Positions 1-3,787 of a stretch of 64,000 nucleotides of DNA are shown in pieces. The DNA lies in the NCBI GenBank assembly GCA_020853395.1, contig JADYYY010000009.1:62001-126000 (forward strand), read 5' to 3'. A model generated the notes under the pieces. The model made no database searches. It saw only the letters and a program-made list of their open reading frames with translations, and was not told where the DNA came from. Source of the DNA: Acidobacteriota bacterium (GTDB taxonomy: Bacteria > Acidobacteriota > Vicinamibacteria > Vicinamibacterales > SCN-69-37). The number at the start of each line of letters is the position of its first letter. The first letter of the stretch is position 1. A program made the position numbers and the translations under genes.

Positions 1-1341
1 CATGGGGATCATGATCACCGTGCGCATGGTCTTCGACGTGAAGAAGAAGTGGGCGTACATGTTGAGCGCGATGACGACGACGTAGACCGTCCAGAAGCTC
101 ATGTCACGGCCGAGGTGCACGCTCTCGAACACGCGCTGGATCGCCCAACGCGCGGCGCCCGTCTGATCGAGCGCCAGCCCGCCGGCGTACGCGCCGGCGC
201 TGAAGATCAGCAGGTGCCACGGAATGTCCGTGTCGTTCCACTTCAGCAGGCCGAGCCTCGGGGTGAGCGCGAGGATACCGCCGAGCATCGCGGCCACCAC
301 GGCCGAGATCCCGAACCCGAACCACGCCATCTGGAAGCGATCCGTCACCCACAGGAACACGACCAGCCCGAAGATCGCGAGGCCCTTCTTCTCGCCGAAG
401 GTGAGCGGTCCCATTCGGGCGAGCTGGCTCTTCAGCGAGTCGAGGCCGCCCGCCAGCCGCGGCACTGACTGCTCGCTCGGGATCTTCATCAGCAGATGCG
501 GGCCGATCCACCACGCGATGGCCATCGCGACGAGCGCCACCGGCAAGCTGGCGAACATCCAGTCCGTGTAGTACACGCGGGTGCCGCCCATCGTCAGGAT
601 GAAACCGACCGCGATGAGGTTCGCGGTGGAACCGGTCATGAATCCCGAGGAGAAGATGTTGATCCCGAGCAGATTCTGGAGGAACAGGTTGCGCCCGAAG
701 TTCGTCGGCGACTGCGACGTCGACTGGTAGATGGCGGCCACGACGAGCATGAGCGGCAGCGTCATGACGGCACGGGCGGCGGTCGCCGGAATGAGCGGGG
801 CCAGCGCGAGCTGCACGACCAGCAGGGCGAGCAGGGTCGTGCCGGCGCGGTGCCCGAAGCGCACGAGCAGCAGCAGCGCGAGCCGTTTCGCGAGATGCGT
901 CTTGATCAGGATGGCGCTCAGGATGAACGCCATGACGTTCAGCCAGATGACGTCGAGCCCCAGCACGCCGAGCACGTTCGCCTCGCTCCAGGCGCCGGTG
1001 AGGATCAGCACGACCATCAGCACGAGCGAGGTGACGTGCGTCGGGATGGGTTCGGCGATCCACCAGATCAGTGCGAGCGCGAAGGCGGCCAGCGCCGCCT
1101 GGCCGTTGCCGGTCAGCCCGACCGGCGCCGGCATCGCGAGGATCGCGCCGAATGCCGCGAGCCCCAGCGGGAACCCCAGGTACTTCATCCAGCGCTCGGC
1201 CGGCCCGGATGGACGTTCCACCACAACCGAGAGCTTGTGGCGTTCGATGTCGAGCGGGTCTTCGACGGCCGTCGAAGCCTGCGGCTCGGCTGACGGCGTC
1301 AGCGCACGGTCGGGCGCGTCGGTGAGCCGGGTACCGCTCAT
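1..1341 (-). CDS. DASS/SLC13-family sodium-coupled anion symporter (3' end outside window)
   Basis: The frame stays open from an ATG at 1341 to the left edge, giving 447 residues with no stop, so the C-terminus is missing. After about 50 hydrophilic residues the protein is almost entirely membrane helices, starting with an ERWMKYLG segment. It carries GEKKGLAIF and WHLLIFSAGAYAGG stretches and a GSTANL motif where divalent-anion symporters bind substrate and sodium. Family members import dicarboxylates, sulfate or phosphate with Na+ across the inner membrane. The start overlaps the stop of the upstream CYTH gene as ATGA, so translation is probably coupled. With a phosphate-type porin and a triphosphatase in the same operon, an inorganic anion such as phosphate is my guess for the substrate; the sequence alone does not fix it. 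Confidence 0.88.
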   Translation of the reverse strand, partial: MSGTRLTDAPDRALTPSAEPQASTAVEDPLDIERHKLSVVVERPSGPAERWMKYLGFPLGLAAFGAILAMPAPVGLTGNGQAALAAFALALIWWIAEPIPTHVTSLVLMVVLILTGAWSEANVLGVLGLDVIWLNVMAFILSAILIKTHLAKRLALLLLVRFGHRAGTTLLALLVVQLALAPLIPATAARAVMTLPLMLVVAAIYQSTSQSPTNFGRNLFLQNLLGINIFSSGFMTGSTANLIAVGFILTMGGTRVYYTDWMFASLPVALVAMAIAWWIGPHLLMKIPSEQSVPRLAGGLDSLKSQLARMGPLTFGEKKGLAIFGLVVFLWVTDRFQMAWFGFGISAVVAAMLGGILALTPRLGLLKWNDTDIPWHLLIFSAGAYAGGLALDQTGAARWAIQRVFESVHLGRDMSFWTVYVVVIALNMYAHFFFTSKTMRTVIMIPM

Positions 1342-1826
1342 GAGGACTGTCGCTCGCCAGCGCTCCACGTTCGGTAGGGACGCGCGATCAGGTTGACGTT
1401 GAAGTAGCGCGGATCGGCAGAGACCTCGGGGCCGAGCCAGGCCGGCCGATCGAACGCCTGGCCGGCGGCGTCGAGCTCGATCTCGGCCGTCACGAGGCCT
1501 TCGTTCTCGCCGTGAAACTCGTCGACCGCCCACGTCCGGCCGCCGACGTCGAGGCGATAGCGCGTCTTGTCGATCAGCGGCCGCTCGCAGAGCGTGTCGA
1601 GCATCTCGTCGGCGTCGGCGACGGGGATCTCGTACTCGAACTCGGCGCGCGTGACGCCGGTCGTGAGCCCCTTGATCGTCAGCACCGCGCGCGGCCCTTC
1701 CGTTCTCACGCGCACCGTGCGTTCCTTCACGGTGGACAGATAGCCCTGGCGGAATCTCACGCCGGCCGCGCCGGCCTTCCATTCGCCGCCGGCCACGAGG
1801 AACTTGCGCTCGATCTCGCGGGCCAT
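1338..1826 (-). CDS. CYTH-domain triphosphate tunnel metalloenzyme
   Basis: This 162-residue protein is a single CYTH domain, the usual length for bacterial members. The diagnostic ExExK motif is at residues 4-8 (EIERK, followed by FLV), then basic and acidic strands (VRVR, LTIKG, EFEYEIP, KTRYRLDV, AEIEL) expected to line the tunnel. The EIERKFLV opening is typical of the subgroup containing the Nitrosomonas europaea tripolyphosphatase, so hydrolysis of tripolyphosphate or a related triphosphate with a divalent metal is the likeliest activity; thiamine triphosphate or an adenylate-cyclase role cannot be excluded. It has no signal peptide and is cytoplasmic. The start is supported by GGAGG five bases upstream. 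It is third in a minus-strand operon, between the porin and the symporter. Confidence 0.9.
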   Translation of the reverse strand: MAREIERKFLVAGGEWKAGAAGVRFRQGYLSTVKERTVRVRTEGPRAVLTIKGLTTGVTRAEFEYEIPVADADEMLDTLCERPLIDKTRYRLDVGGRTWAVDEFHGENEGLVTAEIELDAAGQAFDRPAWLGPEVSADPRYFNVNLIARPYRTWSAGERQSS

Positions 1827-1843
1827 GACGTCCTCCGATCGGA

Positions 1844-1867
1844 CCCGGGAGCCGTGAGGCTCCCGGG
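1844..1867 (-). other. Perfect intercistronic hairpin between porin and CYTH genes
   Basis: CCCGGGAGCC, loop GTGA, GGCTCCCGGG: a 10-bp perfect stem with a GNRA-type tetraloop in the 66-base gap between the porin stop and the CYTH start. No T-run follows, so it is more likely an mRNA-stability or processing element, or a weak attenuator, than a full terminator. Confidence 0.6.
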
Positions 1868-1892
1868 CGTCATGCGCAGGGACAGCCGCGGC

Positions 1893-3161
1893 TCAGAACA
1901 TCAACCCGAGCCGCATCTGGAACACGTTGAACGTGTCGCCCGTGACGTAGTCGCGGTCGCCATCCGCGTTCCCGTCGCCCTTGACGTACAGGTAGTTCGC
2001 CATGAGCCGAACGTTCGCGTTCGCGTACCAGTTGACGCCGAACGTGACGATCTCCTGCTTGCCGCCGAGCACGTTCGCCCCGGCGTCGTTCAGGTCCATG
2101 GTGGAGTAGCGGACCGCCAGCTCCAGCGCGCCGCGCGTGCTCTTCGGCACGATGCGCGAGAACTCACCGGCCGTCCGATCGTACGGCCGCCGATCGCCCG
2201 TCGGGAACCAGCTCGCGAACGCGTACCAGCCGTCGTAGGTTGGCTCCGCGAGCCCAGCCTGCGTCCGGCGCAGCACTTCCCGGTTGTACTCGCTCTGGAA
2301 CGAGAACGAGCCGGCCGCCGCGGCGAGCTCGGCGCCGTAGAGGCTCGCATGGTCGACGTTCCTCACGTTGCCGGTGTCGATGAACCGCCCGCGATTGACG
2401 TGCGTCTCGGGACGGGCCCGCACGCGCCAGCGGTTCGCGTCAGACAGATCCTCGTTCACGGCGGCGGTCGGCTTCATCATCGCGGCGGCGACGCCGACGT
2501 GCACGAACGTCGTCTCTCCGCCGATCGGCAGCGCGGTGACGCGGCCGACGACGCTGTAGGTCTGATCCTGGCCGATCTCGTCGATGGTGTCGCCGAGCTC
2601 GGGACCGAACACGCCCCCGGACGCCTGCCACCGATCGCGCCAGTGCGAGATGCCAACGCCCATGCGCCGGTCCGGCGAGAAGTTGTCGAGCAGCGAGCGT
2701 TCCATGAACGTGATGTAACGTGACGAGGTCAGCGTCTCGAGGCCGAACGGCGTCTTGAAGTTGCCGGCGCGGATGAGCGTGTTCGACAGCCCCGAGTAGC
2801 CGACCCACGCGTCCTTCACGTCCACGGCGTTCTCGACGAAGTCGACGTCGAACTGCGACACCCACGTCCGCCAGAGCTGCATGTTCAGCGCGAAGCGCGC
2901 GCGGCGGAGCTCGACGCCGTTCGCGAGCGTGTTGTCGCTGTTGAAGTAGTACGCCGAGTCGAGGTTGAGCCGCCCGTCCACCCACCACTTGAAGCGCTGG
3001 TCTGGACTCTGCGCGATGAGGATGCCGGCGCCCTGGAACACGTTCACGGGTTCGGGCGGCGTCTGCTCATCGGCCGGCGGCGCGGGGGCCTGCGCATGGG
3101 CGATGCCGGCGGCGCAAGCGGAGACAAGAACGAGACCCAGCACGATTCGCAACGTCTTCAT
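1893..3161 (-). CDS. Phosphate-selective porin, OprO/OprP type
   Basis: This 422-residue outer-membrane beta-barrel has a clear signal peptide (hydrophobic residues about 5-18, likely cleaved after AHA at 23) and ends in phenylalanine (LGLMF), the usual barrel-assembly signal. The body alternates polar and aromatic strands and has the pattern of OprO/OprP porins: FKWWVDGRLNLD, the FKTPFGLE segment, SRYITFMERS, and a late FGVNWYANANVRLMANY strand. Pseudomonas relatives conduct phosphate (OprP) or pyro/polyphosphate (OprO). The same Pfam family is also annotated for porins of unknown selectivity, so the substrate is inferred. It overlaps the stop of the upstream CYTH-like gene by four bases (ATGA). 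Confidence 0.88.
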   Translation of the reverse strand: MKTLRIVLGLVLVSACAAGIAHAQAPAPPADEQTPPEPVNVFQGAGILIAQSPDQRFKWWVDGRLNLDSAYYFNSDNTLANGVELRRARFALNMQLWRTWVSQFDVDFVENAVDVKDAWVGYSGLSNTLIRAGNFKTPFGLETLTSSRYITFMERSLLDNFSPDRRMGVGISHWRDRWQASGGVFGPELGDTIDEIGQDQTYSVVGRVTALPIGGETTFVHVGVAAAMMKPTAAVNEDLSDANRWRVRARPETHVNRGRFIDTGNVRNVDHASLYGAELAAAAGSFSFQSEYNREVLRRTQAGLAEPTYDGWYAFASWFPTGDRRPYDRTAGEFSRIVPKSTRGALELAVRYSTMDLNDAGANVLGGKQEIVTFGVNWYANANVRLMANYLYVKGDGNADGDRDYVTGDTFNVFQMRLGLMF

Positions 3162-3787
3162 GACAAGCGCCCTCCCGGCGCGCGGTGGTACGGGGACGTG
3201 GCGGCGATGCCGGTCAGCTCCTTCAGCGCCGTCACGTAGTTGAGATTTCGGAAGGCCGAGAGGCCGAGCGTGTGCACCGTGCGCCGCACGAGATCCGCCG
3301 CTTCCGCCTCGACGCCGATCGTGCGAATTGGACGGCCGTCCACGAGCAGTGCGGCCACTTCCACCGCGCAGCCGCCGATGAGCGCCCCGTGACGCTCCTT
3401 CTGCACCGCGACTGCGCGCAGTGCGGTCGTCGGCGCGACCACATCCGACAGGAACTCGTCCATCGTGAGCGCCCGCGATCCTGTTTCAGGCGGCACGAGC
3501 CCCCATTCGGCGAAGACCGCCGCGATCGTGCCGGCGTCGATGGGAAACGCGACCTTGAGGATCGGCGACCACAGCTCGAGGCCGTGCTCTGCGCGCTGGA
3601 GACGTTTCACGTCGAGCACGCCGTGGCGGATCTTCACGTTGGCGTCCGAGTCGCGGCACAGGACGTACGTCTCGGCGCTCGATCGGATCTCCGACGCCTG
3701 AGCGCGGATGCGATCGTCGACGTCGCCGAACGTGTTGGCGAACGCGCGCCATTCCCAGCGGGGCACGACGGTGGCCAGCGACTCCAT
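3158..3787 (-). CDS. Degenerate CYTH-like protein, first gene of the porin operon
   Basis: This 209-residue cytoplasmic protein is only distantly like a CYTH domain. In place of ExExK the N-terminus reads WEWRAF (residues 11-16). The middle has VKIR and LDVKRL, and the C-terminal half has the family pattern of basic strand, acidic strand and closing helix: VQKERH, CAVEVAALLVDG, GVEAEAADLVRR, TLGL. Loss of the second Glu and of the Lys suggests altered or absent catalysis, perhaps a binding or regulatory role. It overlaps the porin start by ATGA, so it heads the operon with porin, a canonical CYTH enzyme and the DASS symporter. The family call rests on pattern recognition only and would need a profile search. 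Confidence 0.6.
   Translation of the reverse strand: MESLATVVPRWEWRAFANTFGDVDDRIRAQASEIRSSAETYVLCRDSDANVKIRHGVLDVKRLQRAEHGLELWSPILKVAFPIDAGTIAAVFAEWGLVPPETGSRALTMDEFLSDVVAPTTALRAVAVQKERHGALIGGCAVEVAALLVDGRPIRTIGVEAEAADLVRRTVHTLGLSAFRNLNYVTALKELTGIAATSPYHRAPGGRLS

Follow-up and report, generated by a model that had tools for sequence, protein, structure and literature searches.

Which substrate is served by a gene set that joins an outer-membrane porin and a membrane carrier to two proteins of CYTH type? This question is raised by the left end of a 64,000-nt window, the whole stretch of DNA analysed here (G000:C9:62001-126000, from a genome of 4.28 Mb). The sequence-only reading had described four co-directional genes at this end, two pairs of them joined by ATGA overlaps, as a system for phosphate-type anions of a composition not known before. 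ORF lists and Pfam searches place all four on the minus strand as described, and both overlaps are present in the sequence. Beyond the left edge of the window, the contig completes the gene of the DASS-superfamily carrier and adds a third ATGA-joined pair, formed by DASS and a downstream gene for a putatively exported protein of 241 aa (p241), giving five consecutive genes in the order CYTH-like, OprO/P porin, CYTH, DASS and p241 (Table 1). About 160 bp upstream of the cluster, on the same strand, lies an MgtC gene.

Table 1. Features of the cluster; positions refer to the window unless a contig (C9) or locus (L003) is named
Feature	Position	Strand	Basis
CYTH-like, 209 aa, first cluster gene	3158-3787	-	ORF; TTM-fold model
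OprO/OprP-family outer-membrane porin, 422 aa	1893-3161	-	Porin_O_P E=1.9e-62
CYTH protein, 162 aa	1338-1826	-	PF01928 E=2.3e-15
DASS-superfamily carrier, window part	1-1341	-	PF00939 (Na_sulph_symp) E=4.3e-51
DASS, complete, 527 aa	C9:61758-63341	-	ORF beyond the left edge of the window
p241, 241 aa, fifth gene	C9:61036-61761	-	ORF, ATGA overlap with DASS
ATGA stop/start, CYTH-like/porin	3158-3161	-	sequence
ATGA stop/start, CYTH/DASS	1338-1341	-	sequence
ATGA overlap, DASS/p241	L003 9758-9761, outside the window	-	ORFs
MgtC-family membrane protein, 158 aa	3947-4423	-	PF02308 E=1e-34

Conservation of the gene set

CYTH-like relatives were found in seven other genomes of the class (149 genomes sampled). 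In five of these seven loci porin, CYTH and DASS genes lay beside the CYTH-like gene, and in the other two a Ppx/GppA protein carried the CYTH-like sequence as its N-terminal segment. At the level of the phylum Acidobacteriota it was present in 23 of 396 genomes, and most of these loci carry the same cluster in variable gene order, accompanied either by PhoU_div and PiT or by one or two DUF4010/MgtC proteins; Holophagaceae clusters hold the CYTH-like gene in two copies. A scan of genome contigs seeded with a single CYTH-like protein gave no match. Named genomes were scanned with a DASS alignment as the sole seed, CYTH and CYTH-like being kept out of it. This yielded at least 80 loci from about 18 lineages, including Bacteroidota, Ignavibacteriota, Neomarinimicrobiota, Krumholzibacteriota, Gemmatimonadota, Riflebacteria, Calditrichota, KSB1, and Beta- and Gammaproteobacteria, with some genomes of the 396-genome survey recurring among the named contigs.

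CYTH, CYTH-like and DASS occurred together in 59 of the 80 listed DASS loci, and together with the porin in 44. Where at least 4.5 kb of upstream sequence was available, CYTH was present in 44 of 47 loci and CYTH-like in 41 of 47, and nearly all adjacent core pairs of the listed loci were encoded on the same strand (207 of 210). Cultured carriers include Polaribacter sp. Hel1_85 (L113) and Kaistella jeonii DSM 17048 (L136); cultured Alcanivorax limicola JB21 has CYTH-like and DASS only. In many clusters of Bacteroidota, Lamin-tail-domain and SdiA-regulated/phytase-like proteins are encoded between porin and CYTH-like (L105:4139-6585, L111:5265-6641 and others), and a 486-aa protein outside the Pfam families follows DASS in 12 Bacteroidota loci, e.g. 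L114:9720-11180 (+).

Recurring in many genomes and phyla, the gene set is more than a chance or local accident. Lack of conservation was one of two outcomes named beforehand as speaking against the sequence-only reading, and the neighbourhood comparison across class, phylum and about 18 lineages showed the four genes conserved together. The other, specificity of the transporters for organic acids, was made less likely by the DASS motifs described below. As no published description of the cluster was found in the open-licence part of PubMed Central, the claim of a composition without a described precedent holds for that literature; the gene set is real, widely conserved, linked to phosphate and undescribed there.

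Residues and folds of the cluster proteins

The closest PDB relative of the CYTH protein is the specific inorganic triphosphatase NeuTTM (NE1496 of Nitrosomonas europaea, 3typ; PMC3440374), which covers residues 1-146 (E=6.4e-17; E=1.1e-24 when searched with the family profile). The protein has the CYTH fold, with ExExK in its first strand and paired Arg, Lys and Glu in the tunnel, and all its catalytic residues are kept: E4, E6, K8, R39, R41, K52, E62, E64, K87, R89, E115 and E117 were invariant in the 15 sequences aligned. Nearest relative and residue set both support the cytoplasmic triphosphatase proposed from the sequence as a protein probably resembling a PPPi hydrolase. Unlike NeuTTM, it has as cluster neighbours an altered second TTM protein, a porin and a carrier. 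A second CYTH-domain gene of the host lies at G000:C10:496109-496516 (E=3.7e-17).

No Pfam or NCBIfam family recognised the CYTH-like protein, its profile found weak and mostly unrelated matches in a sequence search of the PDB, and hhalign against CYTH aligned, at low probability, only the later K-x-R segment. Since this profile comparison gave no clear answer, the fold was settled by structure prediction. The AF2 model (pLDDT 90.1) retrieved a top Foldseek match with E=5.1e-7, its best PDB matches were triphosphate-tunnel (TTM) enzymes, and VIA Z scores reached up to 11.8 among PH1819, TTM1, ThTPase, ygiF and AtTTM3. As modelled, with eight strands, the protein has a genuine TTM fold. Conserved positions are R10, E12, R14, K52, R54, K61, E71, K130, R132, E143 and E160. 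The triad R10-x-E12-x-R14 replaces ExExK, and nearly all of the 25 members carry R-x-E-x-R, so that Arg appears to take the place of the first acidic-patch Glu when the register is set by motif and strand position. In AtTTM3 the acidic patch for catalysis comprises Glu2, Glu4, Glu90 and Glu171; according to PMC4641920, PPPi hydrolysis depends on the first two of these, and the same patch of Vtc4 contains basic residues. Since the basic tunnel is kept and the first Glu is apparently exchanged for Arg, the CYTH-like protein is likely to bind a ligand or to catalyse a different reaction, given our own register of the first strand. The CYTH partner described earlier as degenerate thus has a genuine fold with a preserved basic tunnel.

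The porin contains a Porin_O_P domain spanning residues 62-422, i.e. the whole barrel, behind an N-terminus that by eye resembles a signal peptide. It belongs to the family of OprP and OprO, the phosphate and pyrophosphate porins of Pseudomonas aeruginosa (E=4.9e-24 against OprP, 2o4v; E=4.9e-16 against OprO), and keeps R34, R59, R60, S124, S125 and R133 of OprP, which we take to be the residues with a phosphate-binding role. It differs from OprP in having R, K and K in place of Y62, D94 and Y114, and T in place of K121, and from both porins in its linkage to TTM and DASS genes. The basic residues R62, K94 and K114, considered in 70 cluster porins as a cluster-specific signal of selectivity, were dropped as such. 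Non-cluster Porin_O_P proteins from the phylum have these basic constriction residues as well, so that the substrate cannot be read from the porin.

DASS carriers hold the carboxylates of their substrate and Na+ ions with two SNT motifs (PMC7553777). Instead of SNT tips, the hairpins of the window DASS end in PATAAR and SKTMR. All 100 cluster members examined have [PS]AT[AT]A[RK] and SKT-type tips, bar single-residue variants, and the motif counts found SNT at neither tip in any of them, whereas 29 other DASS proteins from 60 Acidobacteriota genomes fall into two known SNT-type motif classes, with the second tip of one of the 29 left unscored because of incomplete sequence. Judged by these tips, the cluster carriers are a third type distinct from both known classes. 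Profile and joint alignments place Arg and His of the window DASS at Arg159 and His392 of LaINDY, which act there as Na+ surrogates (PMC7553777), and Arg at His401. The other branch of cluster DASS carries Lys at the Na1 site and Ala or Ser at the Na2 site. The SN residues and His401 of LaINDY differ in the cluster carriers. With both SNT motifs lost and replaced by Arg/Lys and SKT, the description of the carrier as sodium-coupled is probably wrong: Arg or Lys occupies the Na1 site, and the window type has His at the Na2 site as well. The changed motifs argue against coupling to Na+ and make an organic acid or other carboxylate less likely as substrate; they do not themselves name the substrate.

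In the PDB, the DASS profile found the exchangers DiT1 and LaINDY as nearest solved structures, and also matched the yeast phosphate carrier Pho90 (E=1.1e-6). The window type agrees with LaINDY at Arg159 and His392; it departs from these exchangers in the PAT/SAT and SKT tips, in Arg for His401 and in being carried with phosphate genes. Pho90 and VTC of yeast resemble the cluster in that DASS and TTM superfamilies are joined in phosphate handling. Unlike this pair, the cluster is bacterial, no SPX domain was seen in it, and its TTM proteins are small and free-standing rather than part of a membrane complex. The DASS partner p241 appears to be exported, rich in beta structure and anchored by a single membrane span at the C-terminus, and a Pfam search found no family for it. 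DASS and a p241-like segment lie within a single ORF at L017:9019-10722 and L018:874-2760 (-), which suggests that p241 is a working accessory part of the carrier.

Phosphate-linked partners and host background

Many related clusters contain PhoU_div together with PHO4/PiT, as do 27 of the 59 three-gene loci among the 80 listed DASS loci. Na_Pi_cotrans (NptA) with PhoU, and a histidine phosphatase, recur as further partners. A pyrophosphatase (PPase) with a signal-peptide-like N-terminus is encoded upstream of the cluster in L055:3293-4090 (+) and related Holophagaceae loci, where it adjoins exported proteins resembling an exported or lipoprotein-like TTM family. Members of this family (L068:4724-5662, L072:7057-8004, L079:7066-8004, L129:2043-2921) are barely detected by Pfam; the model of the L068 protein (pLDDT 87) has the TTM fold, and its best structural match is ygiF with tripolyphosphate. 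A CYTH-like domain is fused ahead of a Ppx/GppA phosphatase domain in L013:215-1711 (+) and L014:7455-8969 (-), and the fusion adjoins another CYTH-type protein (L014:8972-9739).

Other neighbours are a PhnD-like binding protein, found in 12 loci, and an NtrC-type two-component system, which stand beside some clusters (L058:12173-15886, L060:13097-16762 and others) as possible regulators. Within Acidobacteriota, MgtC/DUF4010 proteins accompany a large share of the clusters, and in other phyla almost no cluster has them; in Salmonella, a member of the MgtC family promotes phosphate uptake (PMC6658541). A single acidobacterial cluster has a TctC-TctB fusion and TctA in the usual position of DASS between CYTH-like and PhoU_div/PiT (L063:5857-8928, -); in other clusters they stand alongside DASS. 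TctC-TctB-TctA is a tricarboxylate transporter family.

The common thread of the partners is inorganic phosphate and condensed phosphate. PiT, PhoU_div, NptA, the signal-peptide PPase and the Ppx/GppA fusion in related loci bear out the phosphate-type theme that had been proposed from the window. PiT with PhoU_div (DUF47), known alongside Pst from phosphate uptake, is shared with many related clusters and absent from the window's own; elsewhere in its genome the host encodes PiT and PstB separately, and it has no NptA. DASS as the sole phosphate importer of the host was rejected on account of this PiT and PstB. Because the host has them, the cluster is expected to add something beyond basic Pi uptake.

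Interpretation of the locus

Uptake and hydrolysis of condensed phosphates is the most economical reading. We give an even chance to the locus being a phosphate-acquisition module for PPi, tripolyphosphate or short polyphosphate, and infer the following route, with its substrate, direction, coupling and sensor. The OprO/P-type porin would admit phosphate-type polyanions to the periplasm, where certain lineages would shorten them with exported TTM and PPase proteins. A Na+-independent DASS with extra Arg or Lys at its binding tips would then transport a phosphate oxyanion, perhaps in exchange for Pi, with the help of the membrane-anchored, exported p241. In the cytoplasm, CYTH would hydrolyse tripolyphosphate to PPi and Pi, and CYTH-like, with its basic tunnel and apparently without the first Glu of the acidic patch, may serve as a sensor that binds this ligand or as an enzyme for a second substrate. 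A stricter form, in which the new Na+-independent DASS class is a dedicated importer of intact PPi, PPPi or short polyphosphate and the paired TTM proteins are one catalytic and one ligand-sensing, is a possibility that we entertain tentatively. Against the condensed-phosphate reading stand the PiT and PstB of the host, with which ordinary Pi uptake can do without the locus, the TctCBA proteins replacing or joining DASS, which may point to organic anions, the porin residues common to non-cluster relatives, and the absence of PiT/PhoU_div from the window cluster.

The main rival is Pi transport under TTM control: the transporters would carry orthophosphate, and the TTM proteins would be cytoplasmic sensors or regulators gating them by PPPi, polyphosphate or ATP. 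This would resemble the yeast arrangement, in which DASS-type phosphate transporters and the VTC polymerase carry SPX domains. The recurrence of PiT with PhoU_div and of NptA with PhoU, the Pho90 match of the DASS profile and the fusion of CYTH-like to Ppx/GppA agree with this rival, and a kept basic tunnel with an altered acidic patch is expected of a binder. However, the catalytic residues of CYTH, kept in 15 of 15 aligned members, suggest an enzyme, exported TTM and signal-peptide PPase proteins of related loci could not sense cytoplasmic levels, and the host already has PiT and PstB; we regard this rival as rather unlikely. That DASS instead exchanges carboxylates such as citrate or dicarboxylates, the phosphate genes serving freed phosphate (for example where the cell releases citrate to solubilise mineral phosphate or takes it up complexed with a metal), would fit the otherwise carboxylate-carrying DASS and TctCBA and the exchangers nearest in sequence. 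It is improbable in view of the carboxylate-coordinating SNT motifs (PMC7553777), lost in all 100 cluster carriers but of SNT type in the 29 others of the same phylum, and genes of carboxylate metabolism were not seen to recur beside the clusters. Still further down we rank a magnesium or nucleotide-stress locus, in which MgtC/DUF4010 and TTM proteins would reduce the level of chelating PPPi or ATP under Mg2+ shortage and surplus phosphate would leave through the transporters. The MgtC gene upstream in the window, the share of acidobacterial clusters with such proteins and an exchanger-type DASS that could run outward speak for it, but the near absence of DUF4010/MgtC outside Acidobacteriota and the uptake suggested by porin and PhnD-like protein make it highly improbable.

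What PPPase activity signifies in CYTH proteins has been called by no means clear (PMC3440374). Kept together in many phyla, the gene set makes this question testable by linking a porin, an unusual DASS and known phosphate transporters to an enzyme like NeuTTM. It also marks a DASS subclass with changed substrate-binding motifs, a candidate for a new substrate, and brings in, with CYTH-like, a TTM family unrecognised by Pfam and NCBIfam. If condensed phosphates are indeed imported intact, tripolyphosphate-specific CYTH enzymes would gain a physiological job. The carriers are bacteria of soil, sediment and sea, where condensed phosphates may be a source of phosphorus.
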